Shown here: in pieces, positions 709 through 13,564 of the stretch
Layout of the letters: each line of letters starts with the position of its first letter
Position numbering within the stretch: position 1 is the first letter of the stretch
Assembly: GCA_001769655.1 (NCBI GenBank)
Contig: MEPC01000004.1
Location: 62,001 to 126,000, forward strand
Length of the DNA: 64,000 nt
Direction: 5' to 3'
Source: Bacteroidetes bacterium RIFCSPLOWO2_12_FULL_37_12
Lineage (GTDB): Bacteria; Bacteroidota; Bacteroidia; 2-12-FULL-37-12
The notes under the pieces: generated by a model
Told to the model about the DNA's origin: nothing
Seen by the model: only the letters and a program-made list of their open reading frames with translations
The model's database searches: none
Program-made: the position numbers and the translations under genes

Positions 709-2688
709 TTACTCACTCACTATCAATTTCCCTATTGCTATTATCTGCTTCTCTTTCTTCACCCGGTAAAAATAAATTCCTTTCGCAAAATCTTTCACTT
801 CCACCGTCAAGTGATTGTTTTTTATTCCGGTGGTGCTGAATACCTGCTGACCGAGAATGTTGGTGAGGGTGACTTCATCGGGTTGCAGATTATTAAAGTC
901 AATATTGAGAAGTGAGGTGGCGGGGTTGGGGTATATATTAACGAAACCGGAAAAGAACATATTAGAAATTCCGGCCCCTAATCCGTTTATTATGATAGTA
1001 TAATCCTCTGCTTGTCCATACTTGACACTATCGCAAGAACCGAGAATACTATATGTAAAAAGATCTGAAATAGCCCTCATTCTTATTGGAGTATTTAATG
1101 CAGTTCCTGATGAAGGGATAGTAATTATCCCAGAGTGATAAACAAGGGAATCATTGGTAAAAAAAACTAATTCTGTTATTTCAAGCACTCCATCATTGTC
1201 ATAATCGATAAAAACTTTTACATCTTCTTTTAGAGTAGTGCCTATCCTACCTGTTGTTATAGAAATCGGATAGCTAACCCCCGTATCCAGAGTGGTCATT
1301 TTAGTACAAGTGAAATCCTTATATCCACCATCATTCTTGGCTACATCGGTAGTATTATTAATAGTATTGAAAACGATATTGCGAATTCCTATTCCATAGT
1401 TATTGGATAAATTTTTTGCATAAACTGTGCATGCTGGCAAGGGTGCATCGTAAAGAGTAAGGAAATTGGTTTTGATGATTGAATCACTCCAATTGTTATT
1501 GCTGATTTTTAATTTGACTGAATAAATTCCGGAGGAAGAATAAGTATGATTAGGATTCCGGTTTGTATAATCTACTATTCCATTGTTATCAACATCCCAT
1601 TCCCATGAAGTTGCCCATAAACTTGAATCTATAAACTGTATTGGAGTGCCTACACAAAATGAAGTGTTATTAACATTTCCTATTTGAGCAATGGGTTTAT
1701 TGCTACCTACACAACCAGTAAGATTTAGATTTGATGCAGTTGGATAATTGGATAAATATTGTCTTCCTCCCGGTCCTATGTTTGCACGGATGCGCATTAT
1801 TTGCTCATTGGTAAATTGATTCTTACAATCGTCAGATGAATAGTCCATATAATTATGGACAAATAAATTATTAGAAGAACTACCATCACAAGCATTAGTG
1901 CCCGATGAATCACAATAGACGGAGCTTCTTTTATGGGGTGGCGTATCGCCACAACAATCACCTAAATCACTGCCACATTGATTGCCGACCGGACAAGTAG
2001 TTCCACCTAAATCTCCCTCAAAAGTATGAAATAATCCTAAAGCATGCCCCATTTCATGCGTAGCGACATGAGAATTTACTGAAAGTCCAAATACACCATA
2101 CCCAACTAAAAAACTTGCTACTTGCGAAAACCCTGCCAAGCCGCTTGCAAATTTATTGACAACCCAGATACTCAAATAGTTGTTTTTACTCCAAAAGCCG
2201 GTCAATGCCATAAGTTGATTTAGATTAGTACCCGTAACCCCGTTAGCAACATAATCGGGCACTCCTGAAGCGTCTACTCTATTGATTCCTGAATGTGGGT
2301 TTCCGTACGGGTCTATTGAAGCTAAGCAAAACTCTATTTTTGCATCAACACCCATTCCATTTATATTGCTATAATCTTCGTTCAGAATATTTATTGCATT
2401 AATCACCTGCAAATCGGGAATATTTTCATTGGCTCCAACTGATGAACCAACATGCATAATATGAACAGCTACTGGAATTGTATAAATAGTATCCGAATTA
2501 ATTTTCCCACTTGTGGAAATTATTTTTTGCAAAATATTCAGTGATTCATTTTGGTATGCAAGATATGTGGAATCGCTTTTCATTATTTGTTCATCACAAA
2601 TTGCCTTCTCAAAAGTGATTTGTGCTTTTGAATTGAATGCAATGAAAATCAAAATTATCGCCTTTAAAAAAAGTAATTGTTTTTTCAT
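709..2688 (-). CDS. secreted M43-type zinc metalloprotease with T9SS sorting domain
   Basis: This 659-residue protein has an N-terminal signal peptide (about residues 1-23). It has the extended zinc motif HEMGHALGLFH near residue 210, as in pappalysin/cytophagalysin (M43) proteases, with the cysteine-rich segments usual around it. A PKD-like domain follows at about 335-415, then a GEVED-type beta domain at about 430-565. The last 80 residues form a type A Por sorting domain (YPNPATSLLNIDF; ends KLIVSE). Family knowledge predicts export by T9SS and attachment to, or release from, the cell surface, where it would cleave extracellular protein. It stands alone: the IS-interrupted gene lies downstream and the transposase remnant upstream. 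The only plausible start is the ATG that opens the signal peptide. Confidence 0.9.
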   Translation of the reverse strand: MKKQLLFLKAIILIFIAFNSKAQITFEKAICDEQIMKSDSTYLAYQNESLNILQKIISTSGKINSDTIYTIPVAVHIMHVGSSVGANENIPDLQVINAINILNEDYSNINGMGVDAKIEFCLASIDPYGNPHSGINRVDASGVPDYVANGVTGTNLNQLMALTGFWSKNNYLSIWVVNKFASGLAGFSQVASFLVGYGVFGLSVNSHVATHEMGHALGLFHTFEGDLGGTTCPVGNQCGSDLGDCCGDTPPHKRSSVYCDSSGTNACDGSSSNNLFVHNYMDYSSDDCKNQFTNEQIMRIRANIGPGGRQYLSNYPTASNLNLTGCVGSNKPIAQIGNVNNTSFCVGTPIQFIDSSLWATSWEWDVDNNGIVDYTNRNPNHTYSSSGIYSVKLKISNNNWSDSIIKTNFLTLYDAPLPACTVYAKNLSNNYGIGIRNIVFNTINNTTDVAKNDGGYKDFTCTKMTTLDTGVSYPISITTGRIGTTLKEDVKVFIDYDNDGVLEITELVFFTNDSLVYHSGIITIPSSGTALNTPIRMRAISDLFTYSILGSCDSVKYGQAEDYTIIINGLGAGISNMFFSGFVNIYPNPATSLLNIDFNNLQPDEVTLTNILGQQVFSTTGIKNNHLTVEVKDFAKGIYFYRVKKEKQIIAIGKLIVSE

Positions 2689-2795
2689 TTCATTTTGATT
2701 TTTAATTGTTAAAAAATATTTTTCGGTTCATAAATCTGTTTCAATCATTATTTTATTTTCTGTCAAGTTTCACAAGGTTGTTGGGTTAAACAAAC

Positions 2796-3229
2796 TTACT
2801 TTGTCTTAAATTTGTTTTGCAAATATAAAATTTTATTTTTAAACCTATACGGTTTTTGTAAAAACAATTCTGGATTGAGTTCGTACCATTTTTTGACTGC
2901 CTAAAAAGGTGTTTTCACATTCAATTATTTTTTCAAACTACCGTGCCTCCTGTAAAGAAGATAATACACTAAAAACTTCATCAGTTGTGTATTCATTTCA
3001 TCCTTTATTATATTGCTCTCTGAGGATATTGTTTGATTTAATAATTCCGTTTGCTCTTTCTACCATACCATTTGTTTTTGGAGCGCTGGGTTTGGTTAAA
3101 CGATGGTCAATATTTTCTATTTTGCACAATTCGTCCATTTTAGAGGGCTTGGAGCAACTATCTCCTTTTTTAGATACCAATAAATTCAAGAGCGTTGTGT
3201 GTGTCCAGAATGGCAAATAAATCCAAAGG
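2796..3229 (-). pseudogene. IS481-family transposase remnant (C-terminal half)
   Basis: The minus strand carries pieces of an integrase-core transposase in more than one frame. One piece (2998-3216) reads KIENIDHRLTKPSAPKTNG then MVERANGIIK, the HRLTKP...NGxVER signature of IS481/IS3-type DDE transposases. A stop follows. A second in-frame piece ends at a TAA at 2796-2798 with AVKKWYELNPELFL, which matches the usual C-terminus of the family. The N-terminal half is missing: at about 3230 the similarity ends and intron-like sequence begins. The gene is broken by a stop and frameshifts and cannot make active transposase. Confidence 0.8.
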
Positions 3230-3480
3230 GTGAATGTCCATTATGCGTCCCGATAGTATCGGGAAAACATTAGTCCCAACAGTAATGTCGTGACAAGGTG
3301 ATTTACCGTAAGGTATGCACTGAAATAAGCGGGACTGTAAAGGTCTGTACTGACGAACAGAAATCGGATAGGAGGCAAAACTGAAAAGACGAGGTAGCAA
3401 AGCTTACTAAAGTCCAAAGATTAAATCATTCAGTTTTGTAGATCTGACCTTATAAGTGTCCGCCAGAAGCCGTGTCGTCT
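3230..3480 (+). mobile_element. probable 5' fragment of a group II intron
   Basis: About 250 bases begin GTGAATGTCC and contain AATGTCGTGACAAGGTGA, GGGACTGTAAAGG, TACTGACGAACAG, GAGGCAAAACTGAAA, GCTTACTAAAGTCC and AAGTGTCCGCCAGAAGC. I recognise this order of motifs as domain I of Bacteroidota group II introns. That is from memory, not alignment. It interrupts the IS481 remnant in the opposite orientation. No reverse transcriptase ORF, domain V or 3' end follows, because the acetyltransferase cassette starts at once. It is therefore a truncated relic. Only weak minus-strand ORFs cross it, and I regard them as chance. Confidence 0.5.
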
Positions 3481-4024: not shown

Positions 4025-4060
4025 TGGTCGTCACTTTTTAATTTTGTAGTGTCGGAGTGT

Positions 4061-4130
4061 AGAGGAAGATTTAGTGCAACAGTGGCTGAATTGCATGTCC
4101 TATGGACGCAAAGAAACTCTAGTTGTTAGC
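4061..4130 (-). repeat. cassette-border repeat, short copy A
   Basis: About 70 bases matching one end of the repeat seen in full at 10518-10883. On the minus strand it begins GCTAACAACTAGAG and runs through GCAATTCAGCCACTGTTGCA. It lies between the acetyltransferase and the next cassette gene. The other end of the repeat is absent here. Confidence 0.75.
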
Positions 4131-4165: not shown

Positions 4166-4933
4166 TTACTGATGTTGCTTTAAAATCATTGTTAGTAAAA
4201 GCCCAAAACTTCTGTCTACCGATTTAAGTTTACCCGTTGTAAAGGAAACGCCAATTCCTGGACTCCCGTAGTAAGTAGGGGTTGGATAAATACCAAAAGG
4301 TACATCAGCAAGTCCAAAACCTGAAAGAGAATAAAACTTACAGATTTTATTTTCCTCCCAAACAATTGTTGCAGTTGCCCCGAAGAAACCGCCTTTATTA
4401 ATTTTAACTTTTTCGTTTTGTTTGATTGTATGTTTATAATATGTACCTGATTTAATTATTCGTTTTACTTTGTCTGCTCTGAAAGTATATGTTTTATTGT
4501 TAAAGTTGCCGTCACTGATAATGTAAACTGTATTTTTTTCGTGATTATTTAAATTGTTTTTAATAAAAGTGTCATCACCGTAATAAGTGTCAAGCGTCAG
4601 AGTCATTGTCCCTATGCTGTCACACGTGAAGTTTTTAAATTTAAAACAATTTGCTCCTTTCCCATGTGCTTGCTGTTTGATTGCTCTATAAAGTGATGCG
4701 ATGTCATCCCCTTTTTTGCTTATACATTTAAAGGTTTGGATAAATTTTAATGAGGAACTATCTGATGAATTTTCAATAAATGCAAATAAGTTGTTATTAC
4801 TTTTTGTTTGTCCGTTGCTTCTTTGTCCAAGTAGCAGAAAAATTGTCGCTATGAAAAGGATTATCCACCTAATAATTGTCTGATTTTGTGGTGTCAATTT
4901 GCTGTAAAAATATGTACGAAAAACGGTCGTCAT
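4166..4933 (-). CDS. unknown protein with an N-terminal hydrophobic segment
   Basis: This 255-residue protein has one hydrophobic stretch at about residues 24-38 (IRWIILFIATIFLLL) followed by a polar region rich in N, S and K. It would therefore be a signal-anchored or exported protein. The C-terminal third is rich in G, Y, F and P (GLADVPFGIYPTPTYYG), suggesting beta structure. I do not recognise the family. It is a single-gene cassette: the intergenic repeat lies downstream and the GCTAAT...GTTAGC spacer (4943-5073) upstream. Nothing shows a role. Given the neighbours, a stress or defence function is possible but unsupported. Confidence 0.6.
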   Translation of the reverse strand: MTTVFRTYFYSKLTPQNQTIIRWIILFIATIFLLLGQRSNGQTKSNNNLFAFIENSSDSSSLKFIQTFKCISKKGDDIASLYRAIKQQAHGKGANCFKFKNFTCDSIGTMTLTLDTYYGDDTFIKNNLNNHEKNTVYIISDGNFNNKTYTFRADKVKRIIKSGTYYKHTIKQNEKVKINKGGFFGATATIVWEENKICKFYSLSGFGLADVPFGIYPTPTYYGSPGIGVSFTTGKLKSVDRSFGLLLTMILKQHQ

Positions 4934-5094: not shown

Positions 5095-5682
5095 CTATTT
5101 TGAAAGTCGTTTAATTTCATTTTCAATTTGCCCGATTACTTCTTCGTTTCTTATTTTGTCATCAATGCTGAACACGATAAAAACTTTTCCGCCAAACTTT
5201 TTTGTAAATTCGTCAAAACTCACTCTCATTCTTTCTGTCGCTGAATAGTTACCGAAATTTGCTTTTGCCGTGACGGGTTTGATTTGTATGCCAAATGCTT
5301 TTTTGCCAACCCAACCGAGATAATCAATGTCTCCAGCGTGGTCAAGCTCAGGGTCGCTTTCTACAAATTTTACATTTGGAAATTCTTTTGCAAGATTGTC
5401 TTCAATAACTGATTTCTCTCTTATGAAACCGTCATAAGTTCTGTTGATGGTTAAATTAAAAATATAATCAACACAGTCCTGTAATGTAAGTTGGTTAAAT
5501 GCTTCTGTCCATTCAGGAATTACAATTTCTTTGATTTTTACATAGAGCCGTTCACCAAGCTCTTCCAAACTTTCTTTTGTAATTTTACTTGGTGTTTTTC
5601 CGTCCGTATTGGCATTTTGAAAATACCATTTCTGCCATTCTTCAAATGATTTCGGTTGACATTCACGAATGAGAGCCATCAC
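5095..5682 (-). CDS. MjaI-like type II restriction endonuclease
   Basis: The protein resembles the MjaI restriction endonuclease family, whose prototype cuts CTAG. It has the family block ALIRECQPKSFEEWQKWYF near the N-terminus. A PD-(D/E)XK-like centre follows: GDIDYLGWVGKKAFGIQIKP supplies the acidic residue and the QIK lysine. The first usable start is GTG at 5682 or the ATG next to it. The same frame stays open upstream to 5859, overlapping the methyltransferase gene, and encodes a family-like segment EKVLNYTCQTYQLSRPNKVG with no ATG, GTG or TTG. The true N-terminus is therefore uncertain. The methyltransferase immediately upstream makes an R-M pair. I infer CTAG specificity from the family only. 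Confidence 0.8.
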   Translation of the reverse strand: MMALIRECQPKSFEEWQKWYFQNANTDGKTPSKITKESLEELGERLYVKIKEIVIPEWTEAFNQLTLQDCVDYIFNLTINRTYDGFIREKSVIEDNLAKEFPNVKFVESDPELDHAGDIDYLGWVGKKAFGIQIKPVTAKANFGNYSATERMRVSFDEFTKKFGGKVFIVFSIDDKIRNEEVIGQIENEIKRLSK

Positions 5683-7084: not shown

Positions 7085-7176
7085 TCGCCTTTTATTTTGG
7101 TCAAATTTACAATAAAAAGATTGTCTTTGTCTGCAAGTTGTAAACCGTCATGGTCTTTTTTGCCATTACCGCCAAC
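7081..7176 (-). pseudogene. C-terminal fragment of a gene upstream of the methyltransferase
   Basis: About 31 codons (VGGNGKKDHDGLQLADKDN, then LFIVNLTKIKGD and stop) read on the minus strand. They end in a TGA that overlaps the TTG start of the methyltransferase. Upstream the frame enters the end of intergenic repeat copy B and soon stops. It looks like the tail of a gene once translated together with the methyltransferase and cut off where the repeat joins. I cannot name the family. Confidence 0.35.
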
Positions 7177-7472
7177 GCCAGTCCATCTAAAAACTATCTT
7201 TCACCAGCAAAAATACACAAAAATCAGATGTATTAGAAGCAAAATACGGAAGGGGAAAAAAATAGACCGAATGAAAATTAAAAATAAATTCTCTCAGGTA
7301 CTTCTTGAACACATTTTCATAAATAAGCCACTCCACCTTTTTAACGAAATCCCCATAGAGAAAAAAAGGGAAAAAATCAAGGGAAAAAAAAACTTCCGAC
7401 CAGAGGCAGATTCAGTGCAACAGTGGCTGAATTGCATGTCCAATGGGCGCAACGAAGCCTTAGTTGTTTTAG
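7171..7472 (-). repeat. cassette-border repeat, copy B
   Basis: About 300 bases similar over their length to copy C (10518-10883). Shared blocks include CAGTCC(A/G)TCTAAAAACTA, GACCGAATGAAAATTAAAAA, AAATTCTCTC, AACGAAATCCCCAT, GTGCAACAGTGGCT and GGGCGCAACGAAGCCTTAG. Its ends are GCCAAC and GTTTTAG instead of GCTAAC and GTTAGC. It fills the gap of about 400 bases between the methyltransferase and the STAND gene, and I see no gene in it. Confidence 0.75.
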
Positions 7473-7488: not shown

Positions 7489-10400
7489 TTAATTGGCATT
7501 ATCGCTCATTTTCCACTCTGGAAATATATTTTCATTTGCTATAAAATTGAGCCTTTCTTGTAATTCAAAGGGACAGTTTGAGGCATTCACCATGTCTTTA
7601 CATAAAACAAGAACTTCTGCTCTTAGTTCGGTTTGTTTTTGAATAGTAGGATGAGCCAAACATCGGATAAAATACCCCCAACGTTTTTTTGGATGCTTAA
7701 ATTCATTGCGCCAATTTCGAATAATATATATGCAGGCGTCAGCAAGAGGAAAAGAATTATCAATGTGACTTATTGTCAAAGAATAAAATAAATTTCGATT
7801 AATAATTTTGTAATTGTGGAGCAATCTATCAACTTCATTCTGCCAAACACTTATATCAAAAAGTGACACTTTGAGAATTTGTAGATAATAATTATATACT
7901 GGTATTGGAAAAGCAATATCATTTTTTGCTATGAAAATTTGATTTACTATTTTCTCGATAATAGGGTTCTGTTTATCTACTTTTAAAAAAATTATAAGTG
8001 AACGGTAAACAGATTGAGCTCGATATTTTCCAAGCGGTGATGTAAGTATTTCCGATGCAATATCAAACGCTTCAATATCCAATACAGTCAAGCATGTTGT
8101 AAAATCAGCATTAAAATTTTTAGTACAATATAAGTTTATGTGCTCGCGTGCTTTTTTATTTGCAATAGGTTCTCCTTTAACGGCGATTAAACAGTTAACA
8201 AAAACATCAGGCTGATATTTAAGATTGACAGAATTCAAGTACGTGCGAGCTTTTTCTTTAGCAATTTCTTCATCTTTAAGAATTCTAATGCAAATTCCAA
8301 AGCACTCAGAATATTTACTATGATCATATAATAAAAGAAACCTATTAGCAGCATCTCTGGCTATTCTATTCTTCTTAATTAGTTTTAAACAGGCAGTAAA
8401 AATATGATTTGAATATTCAGCACCATCGGTATTAATAAAATTACAAATTGTTGGATAAATACTTGCATGCAAGCCAAGTCTTTCTATAAAAACAAATAAA
8501 CTTTCGGTATTATAGCGAACTAACAATTTTTCAGCCGTGAAATCATTTGGAACTCTTTTTATTAATTCATCCTTTTCTAACATGCGATAGAAATTGGAAA
8601 GAACTGGATTACAAACAATCTCAGACTTAACCAAATTATTTAAGATAGTTAAAACACTTGTCTGACTTAAGTGCTTTTTTATCCAATTAATGATAGGTTG
8701 CCAAATTCTATCATATGATATGCCTAATTGCATGAGTTTGTTTATATAATCAATCCTTTTTTCATTAGAAATGTCTAAAAAATCATCTTTGAATAAAATT
8801 TTAACGTAACCGGGTGATTCGGTTTTTGCTTGAATGAGGAAATCGCAGAAGGAAAGAATTTGATTTTGAGTCAATATCTCATTATTTGGCGAAATACTTT
8901 GAATTAATGATGATAAATCATCTTTAGTATTTTCTGTTTTTAGCGAATTAATTATCTGAAATAGCGAGGAGTTTATTTTGTACTTTATATATGATTTTAT
9001 CTGAATACTTTTCCAACCTTCATCCGCCAAGGTATCATGCAGGAAGCGTACTTGTAAGTATTGTTTATCGCCACTTTTTTTAATACGTATGTAGAAATAG
9101 CGCTTAATAATGGTCTCATTAAGCAAAGTAGCACTATTCGAGTTTAATTCTAAAGGTCTCCTTTCTCCTGAATAAGTTTCTGCTAATACAAGAATTGCTT
9201 CTGGTGACAGTATTACTGAATATTCGGAATACAAATTAGCATACAAGTTTAATATTTGGGCAATGCCTTCATAAAAAGCACTATCTCTTGTGCATAATTG
9301 TTTATAATCGCTTTGAATTATTTCAAGAAAATAATTATTAGCATTACTTTGAATTATTGAGGCATCGGCATGTTGATAAACAAAAAGCATTTGAAAAAGT
9401 CCCGTTTTTAATAATCGTTCTTTTTGTTCTTCAGAAAATTTGTTTTTCCATTTGGGAATTTGGTCTATAATAAATGAAAGTAGTGATCCATTCTCATCAG
9501 AAGTTAAATCATGTGTTACTCTTTCCGAAACAGGGTAGTAGCTTTGATTGGAATATCTGTCCCCAATTAACAGTCTTACATTGGATTTCGTTTTTACCTT
9601 TTGCAACAAAGTTTTTGCTGTAATTCGATCATTGGTTTTTGAGAAATTTCTATACCAATCCTCAAGGACAAGAAGATATTTTTCATTTGGATTATTTTCT
9701 ATATCATATAGCCATTCATTTTTGAGAAAATCTTCTGCATTATCTGCAATCCAATAAACTGTAAATTGATTTCTTAAGTCATGTGCAATTCTTCTGAGTA
9801 AAACTGATTTACCGCTTCCTCCATCTCCGCGAACTATAGTAGCTATTGGATTATCATTAAAAGGGATGGAAAAAGAGTTATTGATTTCTTGACAAATATT
9901 TGAGTAATGTTCTCTCTGAGCGTCCCATTTTTTTATGATTCCATACCATTGAGTAAAATAATTACCTGAATAAAAGTTGAGTGGTTGCCAATTTTCATTG
10001 TTTCCCTTCATTAGTTCTGCCTGAATAAAATCATCATAAATCCATTGTGCACCTGGAATGTAATTCAGATAATAGCGAAGTAACCATTTTGAGCGGGCAA
10101 TGTCCTCTTGCATTTGATTCCAAAACCAAGGTGTAACAATTATATTAGCGGCACTAAGCGTTTTGCAGGTATTTTGAATCTCAGGACTGGTCTCAATGCT
10201 AACAGCGAAAATAAATTGTTTTAGATCAGGAAATTTTTCTACAGCTTGAGCTAAATCATTTTTAAGTTGTGAAATTAGAATAGCACTAGGCACTTCTTTT
10301 TTGCATAACTTACACTGTAAATATCTTCCATCGTAATAAGTTGAATAAATATCAATACCGTATTGCTTTTGCCCCCTTCTTCCATAACGATAATATTCGG

Positions 10401-10494
10401 CTCCATACTTATCACGGGCAATCAAAAGACAAAGACGTTCAAAATCATCATCTGTTGTTGGAAGTGGTATGGAAGAAGGGTCTCTGTAGTCCAT
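7489..10494 (-). CDS. STAND-type NTPase with N-terminal PD-(D/E)XK-like nuclease domain
   Basis: This 1001-residue cytoplasmic protein has three parts. Residues about 10-140 resemble a restriction-endonuclease fold: FERLCLLIA, then GQKQYGIDIY and RYLQCK, the E...D...QxK pattern of Mrr-like nucleases. Residues 215-320 hold a P-loop ATPase: Walker A GDGGSGKS at 223-230, Walker B LLVLED at 274-279, and a conserved-looking IGDRYS near 310. The rest (about 480-1001) is helical-repeat sequence suited to ligand sensing. This layout matches the Avs/STAND anti-phage proteins, in which sensing triggers the nuclease, though it is shorter than most. It stands alone between two repeat copies, next to an R-M pair. 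The defence role is inferred from architecture and neighbours. Confidence 0.75.
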   Translation of the reverse strand: MDYRDPSSIPLPTTDDDFERLCLLIARDKYGAEYYRYGRRGQKQYGIDIYSTYYDGRYLQCKLCKKEVPSAILISQLKNDLAQAVEKFPDLKQFIFAVSIETSPEIQNTCKTLSAANIIVTPWFWNQMQEDIARSKWLLRYYLNYIPGAQWIYDDFIQAELMKGNNENWQPLNFYSGNYFTQWYGIIKKWDAQREHYSNICQEINNSFSIPFNDNPIATIVRGDGGSGKSVLLRRIAHDLRNQFTVYWIADNAEDFLKNEWLYDIENNPNEKYLLVLEDWYRNFSKTNDRITAKTLLQKVKTKSNVRLLIGDRYSNQSYYPVSERVTHDLTSDENGSLLSFIIDQIPKWKNKFSEEQKERLLKTGLFQMLFVYQHADASIIQSNANNYFLEIIQSDYKQLCTRDSAFYEGIAQILNLYANLYSEYSVILSPEAILVLAETYSGERRPLELNSNSATLLNETIIKRYFYIRIKKSGDKQYLQVRFLHDTLADEGWKSIQIKSYIKYKINSSLFQIINSLKTENTKDDLSSLIQSISPNNEILTQNQILSFCDFLIQAKTESPGYVKILFKDDFLDISNEKRIDYINKLMQLGISYDRIWQPIINWIKKHLSQTSVLTILNNLVKSEIVCNPVLSNFYRMLEKDELIKRVPNDFTAEKLLVRYNTESLFVFIERLGLHASIYPTICNFINTDGAEYSNHIFTACLKLIKKNRIARDAANRFLLLYDHSKYSECFGICIRILKDEEIAKEKARTYLNSVNLKYQPDVFVNCLIAVKGEPIANKKAREHINLYCTKNFNADFTTCLTVLDIEAFDIASEILTSPLGKYRAQSVYRSLIIFLKVDKQNPIIEKIVNQIFIAKNDIAFPIPVYNYYLQILKVSLFDISVWQNEVDRLLHNYKIINRNLFYSLTISHIDNSFPLADACIYIIRNWRNEFKHPKKRWGYFIRCLAHPTIQKQTELRAEVLVLCKDMVNASNCPFELQERLNFIANENIFPEWKMSDNAN

Positions 10495-10517: not shown

Positions 10518-10883
10518 GCTAACGTCAGTCCGTCTAAAAACTACCTTTAAATAGCAAAAATACATTAAAATCGGATAGCATAGAAGCGATATACGAAAGG
10601 TACATAAAAATTGAACGGAATGAAAATTAAAAATTTGGTATCAACCGGAGGTCGTATTTTGCTTTTAAGGATTTCAAAAATTTGGAAAATAAAAAAATTA
10701 ATTCTCTCGGGAACTTCTTGTACACATTTTTATAAATAAAACCACTCTACCTTTTTAATGAAATCCCCATTGAGAAACAAAACTCAACATTCAAAAGGGA
10801 AAAAAACTTCCTCAGAGGAAGATTTAGTGCAACAGTGGCTTCATAGCTTGTCCTATGGACGCAACGAAGCCTTAGTTGTTAGC
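10518..10883 (-). repeat. cassette-border repeat, full copy C with GCTAAC...GTTAGC ends
   Basis: A unit of 366 bases lies upstream of the STAND gene, bounded by the inverted hexamers GCTAAC (10518-10523) and GTTAGC (10878-10883). It shares its interior with copy B (7171-7472) and its right end with copy A (4061-4130). Small ORFs inside it are not convincing. It behaves like a non-coding element that accompanies cassettes. Confidence 0.75.
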
Positions 10884-12314: not shown

Positions 12315-12436
12315 ATATTCCGTCCCTAAAGGGACTTAGATTTGGTGCTATGACTTTTCTACCGATATTCCGTCCCTAAAGGGACTTAGGTTTGGTGCAA
12401 TGTCTTTTCTACCGATATTCCGTCCCTAAAGGGATT
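12315..12436. repeat. 50-bp tandem repeat with GTCCCTAAAGGGAC hairpin
   Basis: Three copies of ATATTCCGTCCCTAAAGGGA start at 12315, 12365 and 12415, spaced exactly 50 bases apart. The spacers (CTTAGATTTGGTGC, then TTTTCTACCG) are almost identical. Each copy holds the palindrome GTCCCTAAAGGGAC. It fills the gap between the accessory region and serA, and the rest of 12090-12589 shows no gene. Confidence 0.9.
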
Positions 12437-12589: not shown

Positions 12590-13564
12590 ATGAATATCCT
12601 CATCAACGACGGAATCGACAAAGAAGCAAAATCAATGCTTGAAAAAGCAGGTTTTACGCTTGATATGAATAAAATCCCTCAGCAGGAACTTGCGGGAAAA
12701 ATTCAGAATTACTCTGCCATTTTAGTACGAAGCGCTACGAAAGTGAAAAAAACGGAAATTGATGCCGGAGTTAATTTAAAACTGATTGGCAGAGGTGGTG
12801 TAGGATTAGATAATATAGATGTTGAATACGCCCGCGCTAAAGGAATTGCTGTAATCAATACTCCCGATGCCTCTACCCTATCGGTTGCCGAGCTTGTTAT
12901 TGCGCATACGTTTGGTATGGCGCGTTTTCTTCATCAATCAAATCGAGAAATGCCGGCTGTTGGAATTAATAAATTTGAAGAACTCAAGAAAAAATACAGC
13001 GCCGGCAAAGAATTACGGGGAAAAACCATGGGAATTATTGGTTTTGGGAGAATAGGTCAGGAAACCGCCCGGATTGCTTTCCGGCTGGGAATGAAAGTCA
13101 TCCTGCATAACAGAACCGATAGAGAATTCAGTTTGAAAGTTGACTTCGCTCAAAATGATGTGAACATTAACCTTGAGTTTAAAGTGAAAGCCACCACTTT
13201 TGAACACGTACTCGAAAATTCAGATTTTATCTCTATACATGTCCCATTTAAAAAAGGGGATAAACCCATTATTTCCTCTAAAGAATTTGAAATGATGAAA
13301 CCCGGCACCGGTCTGATTAATTGTTCACGCGGAGGAGTCGTGGATGAAAAAGCACTGCTCTCTGCGCTCAATACTAATAAAATTGCGTATGCCGCCGTAG
13401 ATGTTTACGAATCGGAACCCACCGACAATCTTGAATTATTATCTCATTCTGCTGTATCTTTAACGCCCCATACAGGCGCTTCCACCGTGGAAGCACAACA
13501 GCGTGTGGGTACACAACTCGCCTCACAGGTAATTGATTTTTTCAGAGGGAAAGGGTTGATTTGA
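12590..13564 (+). CDS. serA: D-3-phosphoglycerate dehydrogenase family protein
   Basis: This 324-residue NAD-dependent D-2-hydroxyacid dehydrogenase probably oxidises 3-phosphoglycerate in the first step of serine synthesis. It shows the nucleotide-binding motif GKTMGIIGFGRIGQE at about residues 143-157, the substrate-side RSATKVKKTEID and GRGGVGLDNID early on, and the C-terminal catalytic segment INCSRGGVVDE, with the catalytic His in LTPHTGAST. It has no ACT regulatory domain, so it is the short form. Its stop overlaps the start region of a DUF1015 gene, a pairing common in Bacteroidota. Related hydroxyacid dehydrogenases cannot be fully excluded. Confidence 0.85.
   Translation: MNILINDGIDKEAKSMLEKAGFTLDMNKIPQQELAGKIQNYSAILVRSATKVKKTEIDAGVNLKLIGRGGVGLDNIDVEYARAKGIAVINTPDASTLSVAELVIAHTFGMARFLHQSNREMPAVGINKFEELKKKYSAGKELRGKTMGIIGFGRIGQETARIAFRLGMKVILHNRTDREFSLKVDFAQNDVNINLEFKVKATTFEHVLENSDFISIHVPFKKGDKPIISSKEFEMMKPGTGLINCSRGGVVDEKALLSALNTNKIAYAAVDVYESEPTDNLELLSHSAVSLTPHTGASTVEAQQRVGTQLASQVIDFFRGKGLI

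Follow-up and report, generated by a model that had tools for sequence, protein, structure and literature searches.

What does the long reverse-strand gene at 7489-10494 encode, and what is to be made of the repeats on either side of it? The window, which here means the whole 64,000-nucleotide stretch of DNA analysed, had been described in a sequence-only reading as holding a STAND protein with a nuclease-like N-terminus, a candidate anti-phage effector lying beside a restriction-modification (R-M) pair. The protein was compared with known immune receptors, and the flanking repeats were followed through the rest of the genome.

Architecture of the protein

The gene is one unbroken frame of 1001 codons, as the sequence-only reading had claimed, and is present in a single copy in the genome. 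Its product combines an Mrr-like PD-(D/E)XK nuclease domain (residues 1-145), a STAND ATPase (173-315) and a helical C-terminus, and the order of nuclease, P-loop STAND ATPase and helical repeats proposed earlier was upheld when each part was checked. An N-terminal effector, a central STAND ATPase and a C-terminal repeat sensor in one chain constitute the layout of Avs proteins. Avs types I-V are further marked by oligomerisation and by directly recognising a conserved phage protein, terminase or portal. The parts are located as follows:

7489..10494, (-): REase-nSTAND5-helical-repeat protein, 1001 aa, single ORF
10060..10494, (-): Mrr-like PD-(D/E)XK nuclease domain, residues 1-145, from alignment and predicted structure
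10438..10440, (-): predicted catalytic E19 (FE motif), invariant in 10 of 10 aligned proteins
10351..10353, (-): predicted catalytic D48 (GRRGQKQYGID), invariant in 10 of 10 aligned proteins
10309..10317, (-): predicted catalytic Q60-C61-K62 (QxK), Q60 invariant, C61 and K62 in at least 90%
9550..9978, (-): STAND ATPase core, Pfam PF25199 nSTAND_NTPase5, residues 173-315, 51.6 bits against a cut-off of 34
9805..9828, (-): Walker A GDGGSGKS, residues 223-230, from motif reading and Pfam
9655..9675, (-): Walker B-like LLVLEDW, residues 274-280, with EDWYR also in relative L035
7492..8997, (-): all-helical C-terminal half, residues 500-1001, putative sensor, predicted helices with low pLDDT
8011..8418, (-): four tandem helical repeats of 33-34 aa, residues 693-828, from self-similarity against shuffles

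The nuclease domain is common to eleven loci in five phyla, detected with a degenerate-pattern scan built from a three-sequence alignment. Across ten aligned proteins from several phyla the pattern FE...GRRGQKQYGID...QCK is kept, with F18, E19, G38, R39, G41, Q42, Q44, G46, D48 and Q60 invariant, and this E...D...QxK layout is the pattern of Mrr-type PD-(D/E)XK nucleases. Pfam Mrr_cat matches six of the ten aligned relatives (best 2e-6), but residues 1-145 of the window protein itself gave no direct match to any nuclease family, Mrr_cat included. AlphaFold2 predicts an alpha-beta-beta-beta-alpha-beta-alpha-beta fold for the domain (mean pLDDT 84, pTM 0.79), with helices at residues 15-30, 70-87 and 104-113 and strands at 35-37, 49-51, 57-62, 93-98 and 119-123; both the E, D, (E/Q)xK site and the alpha-beta3-alpha-beta core that define PD-(D/E)XK enzymes are thus found in it. 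Searched against the PDB, this model finds EcoO109I (E 1.1e-3, prob 0.99) and the nuclease of Avs4 (E 6e-3, prob 1.00) as its best matches; the E-values are marginal, but each of these top targets is a PD-(D/E)XK enzyme. Together, the conserved E19, D48 and QxK residues and the nuclease-like predicted fold bear out the PD-(D/E)XK-like N-terminus of the sequence-only reading, which had named a fold of another kind as what would speak against it.

The P-loop GDGGSGKS seen earlier lies inside the nSTAND_NTPase5 match, whose score exceeds the curated cut-off, and a sensor-like LIGDR is found at residues 309-313. NACHT (PF05729) matched over the P-loop only, at 19.8 bits against a cut-off of 26.7, which does not place the protein among bNACHT/NACHT proteins, and further P-loop families match weakly, all below their cut-offs. 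In the C-terminal half, the tandem repeats reach a best self-match score of 47 at offset 33, compared with a maximum of 31 in 60 shuffles. These repeats match no Pfam repeat family, and the half as a whole has no sequence relative among 395 Bacteroidota genomes.

The full-length structure model is poor (mean pLDDT 60, pTM 0.33). When it was searched against the PDB with Foldseek, only two chains had E < 1e-3, both of them Avs4 bound to phage portal (8dgf; best 4.1e-7, prob 1.00), and BFVD gave no match with E < 1e-3. The TM-scores of the Avs4 matches, 0.12 and 0.09, are low because the full-length model is poor, and the Avs4 match therefore backs the domain order, not the detailed shape.

Relatives and known receptors

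Close homologues of the whole protein were found neither in a search of genome contigs with this protein, nor by tblastn of plasmids and phages, nor in viral contigs. A PDB sequence search returned one chance match, and the N-terminal profile gave noise only against the PDB. None of the PADLOC models of Avs or other STAND systems matches the protein; at E<1 there are just weak mad8 and PtuA P-loop matches.

Among known systems, Avs4 (AVAST type IV, PDB 8dgf) is alike in carrying a PD-(D/E)XK nuclease, then a STAND ATPase and then a helical repeat sensor on a single chain. It is also the sole significant whole-chain Foldseek match, and the nuclease domain alone matches its nuclease as well. However, the deposited Avs4 chains have 1534-1541 residues compared with 1001 aa in the window protein, which lacks a PADLOC Avs profile even at E<1, has an NTPase of the nSTAND_NTPase5 family and a sensor half without sequence relatives. 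The impression that the sensor looked unrelated to Avs stands by sequence (no PADLOC Avs match, no relatives among the 395 Bacteroidota genomes), while for the overall architecture Avs4 is the best solved structure. Judged by sequence, the window protein is outside the catalogued Avs types, and its anatomy suggests that it probably acts like an Avs protein; because no catalogued type matches by sequence, the name Avs fits the probable mode of action and not family membership. Avs5, which is SIR2-nSTAND3-TPR/Sel1 (PMC12931631), shares the three-part logic and a variable C-terminal repeat sensor (PMC12931631), but its effector is SIR2 and its core nSTAND3.

The closest architecture is that of a REase-nSTAND5-TPR protein of Chlorobium ferrooxidans (L036/L053), which has the same N-terminal nuclease and the same NTPase family, with 26% identity over residues 18-251 (L036). 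Its C-terminus is a canonical TPR, whereas the window repeats match no Pfam family. The closest STAND relative is encoded in a Bacteroidia genome (L035, genome G329) and is 29% identical over residues 146-567, the STAND core and what follows; however, its N-terminus is another region, not the window nuclease, and the similarity fades past residue 620. PF25199 is over its cut-off in 15 of the 395 Bacteroidota genomes, and in the examined proteins elsewhere it bears SIR2, Cap4-like, SLFN_AlbA_2 or REase heads, the last in Chlorobium ferrooxidans. With such varied heads on the same NTPase family, the window protein falls within an already known modular kind, and head swapping on nSTAND_NTPase5 is the modularity typical of immune effectors. 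Neighbours of the relatives include a type IIG R-M system, an Argonaute-associated nuclease and an E1/JAB conjugation operon, so that homologues do adjoin defence genes, a point on which the sequence-only reading had staked its proposal; the exception is the Chlorobium relative, which lies among apparent housekeeping genes with no visible defence island.

Repeat-bounded cassettes

The gene is flanked by direct repeats. Searching the genome for the repeat gave 33 matches, spread over many contigs and in several cases located at the end of one: three copies are in the window and about 30 more elsewhere in the same genome (G000, loci L101-L116). The surroundings had been called a cassette region, which is correct and stronger than first claimed, as repeat copies bound cassettes genome-wide. 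The R-M pair noted beside the STAND gene is also real, consisting of an MjaI-type endonuclease and a methyltransferase. The features of this neighbourhood are:

10519..10880, (-): full repeat of about 364 bp directly upstream of the STAND gene, whose ATG follows the 3' end of the repeat (GGACTGACGTTAGC) at a distance of 24 nt
10555..10562, (-): TATTTTTG, which fits the -7 consensus TAnnTTTG
7172..7468, (-): internally deleted copy of the repeat, beginning 20 nt past the STAND stop codon
5774..7084, (-): type II DNA methyltransferase (N6_N4_Mtase), from Pfam and PADLOC
5095..5682, (-): MjaI-type restriction endonuclease, from Pfam and PADLOC
4060..4127, (-): short copy of the repeat, hairpin end only, after a 255-aa gene, from repeat alignment

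The 255-aa cassette gene (4166-4933) has no significant Pfam, NCBIfam or PADLOC match and could be an unrecognised defence gene. At its C-terminus, the methyltransferase of the MjaI-type pair has a match to a staphylococcal-nuclease-like domain (PF00565, E 7.5e-6). Elsewhere in the window, a 50-bp direct repeat with GTCCCTAAAGGGAC as its palindromic core occurs two and a half times at 12315-12434, before the gene at 12590, and an apparent remnant of an IS-type transposase frame lies at 2680-3480, in the gap past a GNAT gene.

Twelve long copies have sharp ends, TAACAAC at 5' and the same 3' end as the copy upstream of the STAND gene, about 364 bp apart; the end alignment over all copies comprised 26 5' ends and 21 3' ends. 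Read in gene orientation, most 5' ends lie -17 to +40 nt from an upstream same-sense stop codon, at +20 for the STAND gene and at +8 to +29 for many others. All of the 21 copies long enough to include the 3' end retain TAnnTTTG, the -7 promoter consensus of Bacteroidota, at a distance of 31-44 nt from where the match ends. A sigma-70 promoter scan was uninformative, with fewer matches than in shuffles. The TAnnTTTG motif makes it probable that each repeat carries an outward promoter for the next cassette, and because it is conserved, the STAND gene is probably expressed from the promoter of the repeat upstream. The repeat was not found in plasmids or viral contigs. In a second Bacteroidia genome (G027, L139 7300-12125), a related though different repeat that shares the 3' end occurs four times, interleaved with toxin-antitoxin-like genes; around its copies lie a gene of PIN-domain-like type, an HTH/RelE-like pair and other genes read by eye only.

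Where the repeat comes from is indicated by its hairpin end, which is shared with a Y2-transposase element, as in an IS91 derivative. In another genome (G003, L134 7443-10022), an intact tyrosine recombinase and IS91-type transposase (Phage_integrase, Y2_Tnp, Zn_Tnp_IS91) are bounded by two inverted hairpins, and the right one is the hairpin of the window repeats, TAACAACTAAGGCTTCGTTG...CAATGAAGCC.CTGTTGCAC. The window's genome has just two Y2_Tnp (IS91-type) matches, both remnants (C20 and C39); they adjoin repeat copies in convergent orientation, each at the same distance, 186 bp, from the shared part of the repeat. In L103 and L113 the first ~150 positions of the repeat end beside Y2_Tnp remnants; in L134, positions 2-82 end beside the intact IS91-type pair. 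With this hairpin common to Y2-transposase elements, the first ~150 bp are taken as an IS91-type terminus, the promoter motif lying in the other ~210 bp. Folding is best in the copies adjoining transposase remnants, at about -25 to -26 kcal/mol; the hairpin is degraded to varying degrees in most cassette copies, and a convincing fold is confined to the first ~55 nt of the better-preserved copies. Of 100 shuffles on each strand, 5-6 folded as well as the whole 372 nt, and the full repeat is therefore not taken as one hairpin.

An integron origin was the first idea and is retained as a comparison only. Like attC sites, the repeat follows stop codons in the same orientation, and it has TAAC...GTTA termini; however, its ~364 bp exceed the usual attC size and each copy bears a promoter motif. 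No integron integrase was found over cut-off in this draft genome, which is 97.9% complete: the TIGR02249 scan gave partial tyrosine-recombinase matches only, the best at 93 bits against 265. The idea was set aside because of the missing IntI match over cut-off and the hairpin end common to IS91-type elements. IS91/ISCR rolling-circle elements share that end, through both the intact G003 element and the Y2 remnants of the same genome, although the cassettes themselves are without a transposase. ISCR1 carries outward promoters (PMC6218425).

Besides the MjaI pair, R-M cassettes of HindIII (L106), SacI (L104) and MvaI/BcnI (L103) type are present. Other cassettes hold an AAA_15 NsnB/AriA-like protein with PIN (L101), an OLD/GajA-like TOPRIM protein (L112), PDC-S42 (L110), a PDC-S49 KAP NTPase with a Fic protein (L105), an RmrA-like peptidase with DUF4411 (L102), Gp49/HTH (L107) and HTH, also in L103; toxin-antitoxin pairs are among them. 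Also carried are DinB_2, a UbiE-like methyltransferase, a trypsin-like protein and unknowns. This list comes from chosen scanned proteins and is not an unbiased census. Independently of that choice, four of the nine N6_N4_Mtase loci lie within 1.5-3 kb of a repeat, an interval covering 2.1-3.3% of the genome (P 2e-5 to 1e-4).

Proposed function and meaning

The protein most likely stops phage-infected cells, and it is likely to do so as an NLR-like single-protein sensor of phages (or of mobile elements), a nuclease-STAND receptor in which ligand-gated oligomerisation leads to DNA degradation. At rest, the ATP-binding STAND core would keep the protein inactive. A conserved phage product would be recognised by the C-terminal helical solenoid, and its binding would promote ATP-driven oligomerisation through the STAND core, gathering several N-terminal Mrr-like PD-(D/E)XK domains. 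The gathered nucleases would then cut double-stranded DNA of the phage, the host or both and so stop phage production, with the cell probably paying in an abortive outcome. We infer ligand binding, oligomerisation, DNA cutting and this outcome from a gene seen here with intact predicted catalytic residues, a predicted nuclease fold, a STAND family assignment, helical tandem repeats and defence cassettes around it. The candidate anti-phage effector of the sequence-only reading is supported at the same level by the architecture, the conserved predicted active site, the defence context and the neighbours of relatives.

Other functions fit these observations less closely. The position of the N-terminal domain in the Mrr_cat neighbourhood, and the type IIG R-M genes that adjoin its relatives, might suggest a stand-alone, modification-dependent (type IV-like) restriction enzyme, in which an NTPase-driven Mrr-like nuclease recognises modified DNA and not a phage protein. 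This is unlikely, as the P-loop is of the STAND family and not of a McrB-type AAA+ protein or SF2 helicase, the long C-terminal solenoid suits protein sensing, and the same NTPase family elsewhere bears NAD-targeting SIR2 heads, a poor fit to DNA restriction. Several toxin-antitoxin pairs among the other cassettes could point instead to a selfish stabiliser that kills or arrests on loss or stress, with anti-phage action secondary. With repeats 20 nt past the stop and 24 nt before the start, however, the cassette holds no antitoxin-sized partner, and STAND proteins are generally self-inhibited and ligand-gated; this reading is less probable again. That the gene is decayed or repurposed, for example as a STAND regulator whose nuclease-like domain is dead, is very improbable: no orthologue was found and many repeat copies in the genome are degraded, but the 1001-codon frame is intact, all three catalytic positions are kept and no Pfam HTH DNA-binding family is over its cut-off in the protein. 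Altogether, an intact active site, a STAND core and sensor repeats fit these alternatives less well than they fit a ligand-gated receptor.

As a ligand-gated receptor, the protein extends the nuclease-STAND kind to a helical sensor without known sequence relative and to the nSTAND_NTPase5 family, so the phage product that it recognises may differ from those of known Avs types. The repeats on either side may be more important than the STAND protein itself. It is conceivable, at rather less than even confidence, that immunity and toxin-antitoxin genes are stored across this genome as a dispersed stock of repeat-bounded, self-promoted cassettes, each a gene or operon with a ~364-bp IS91-derived element that has a hairpin end and an outward promoter. 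Capture would then be integron-like while needing neither an integron integrase nor a shared promoter, and one of the passengers would be the nuclease-STAND gene, whose sensor type has been seen nowhere else. Integrons are rarely found in Bacteroidota genomes (PMC9024848). The repeat-bounded cassettes are more novel than the nuclease-STAND protein, and no description of them was found in the titles and abstracts that searches of open-licence papers returned. The flanking repeats provide a sequence tag for locating defence genes in Bacteroidota genomes, and they suggest an IS91-type element capable of spreading immunity genes and having them expressed, much as integrons do.
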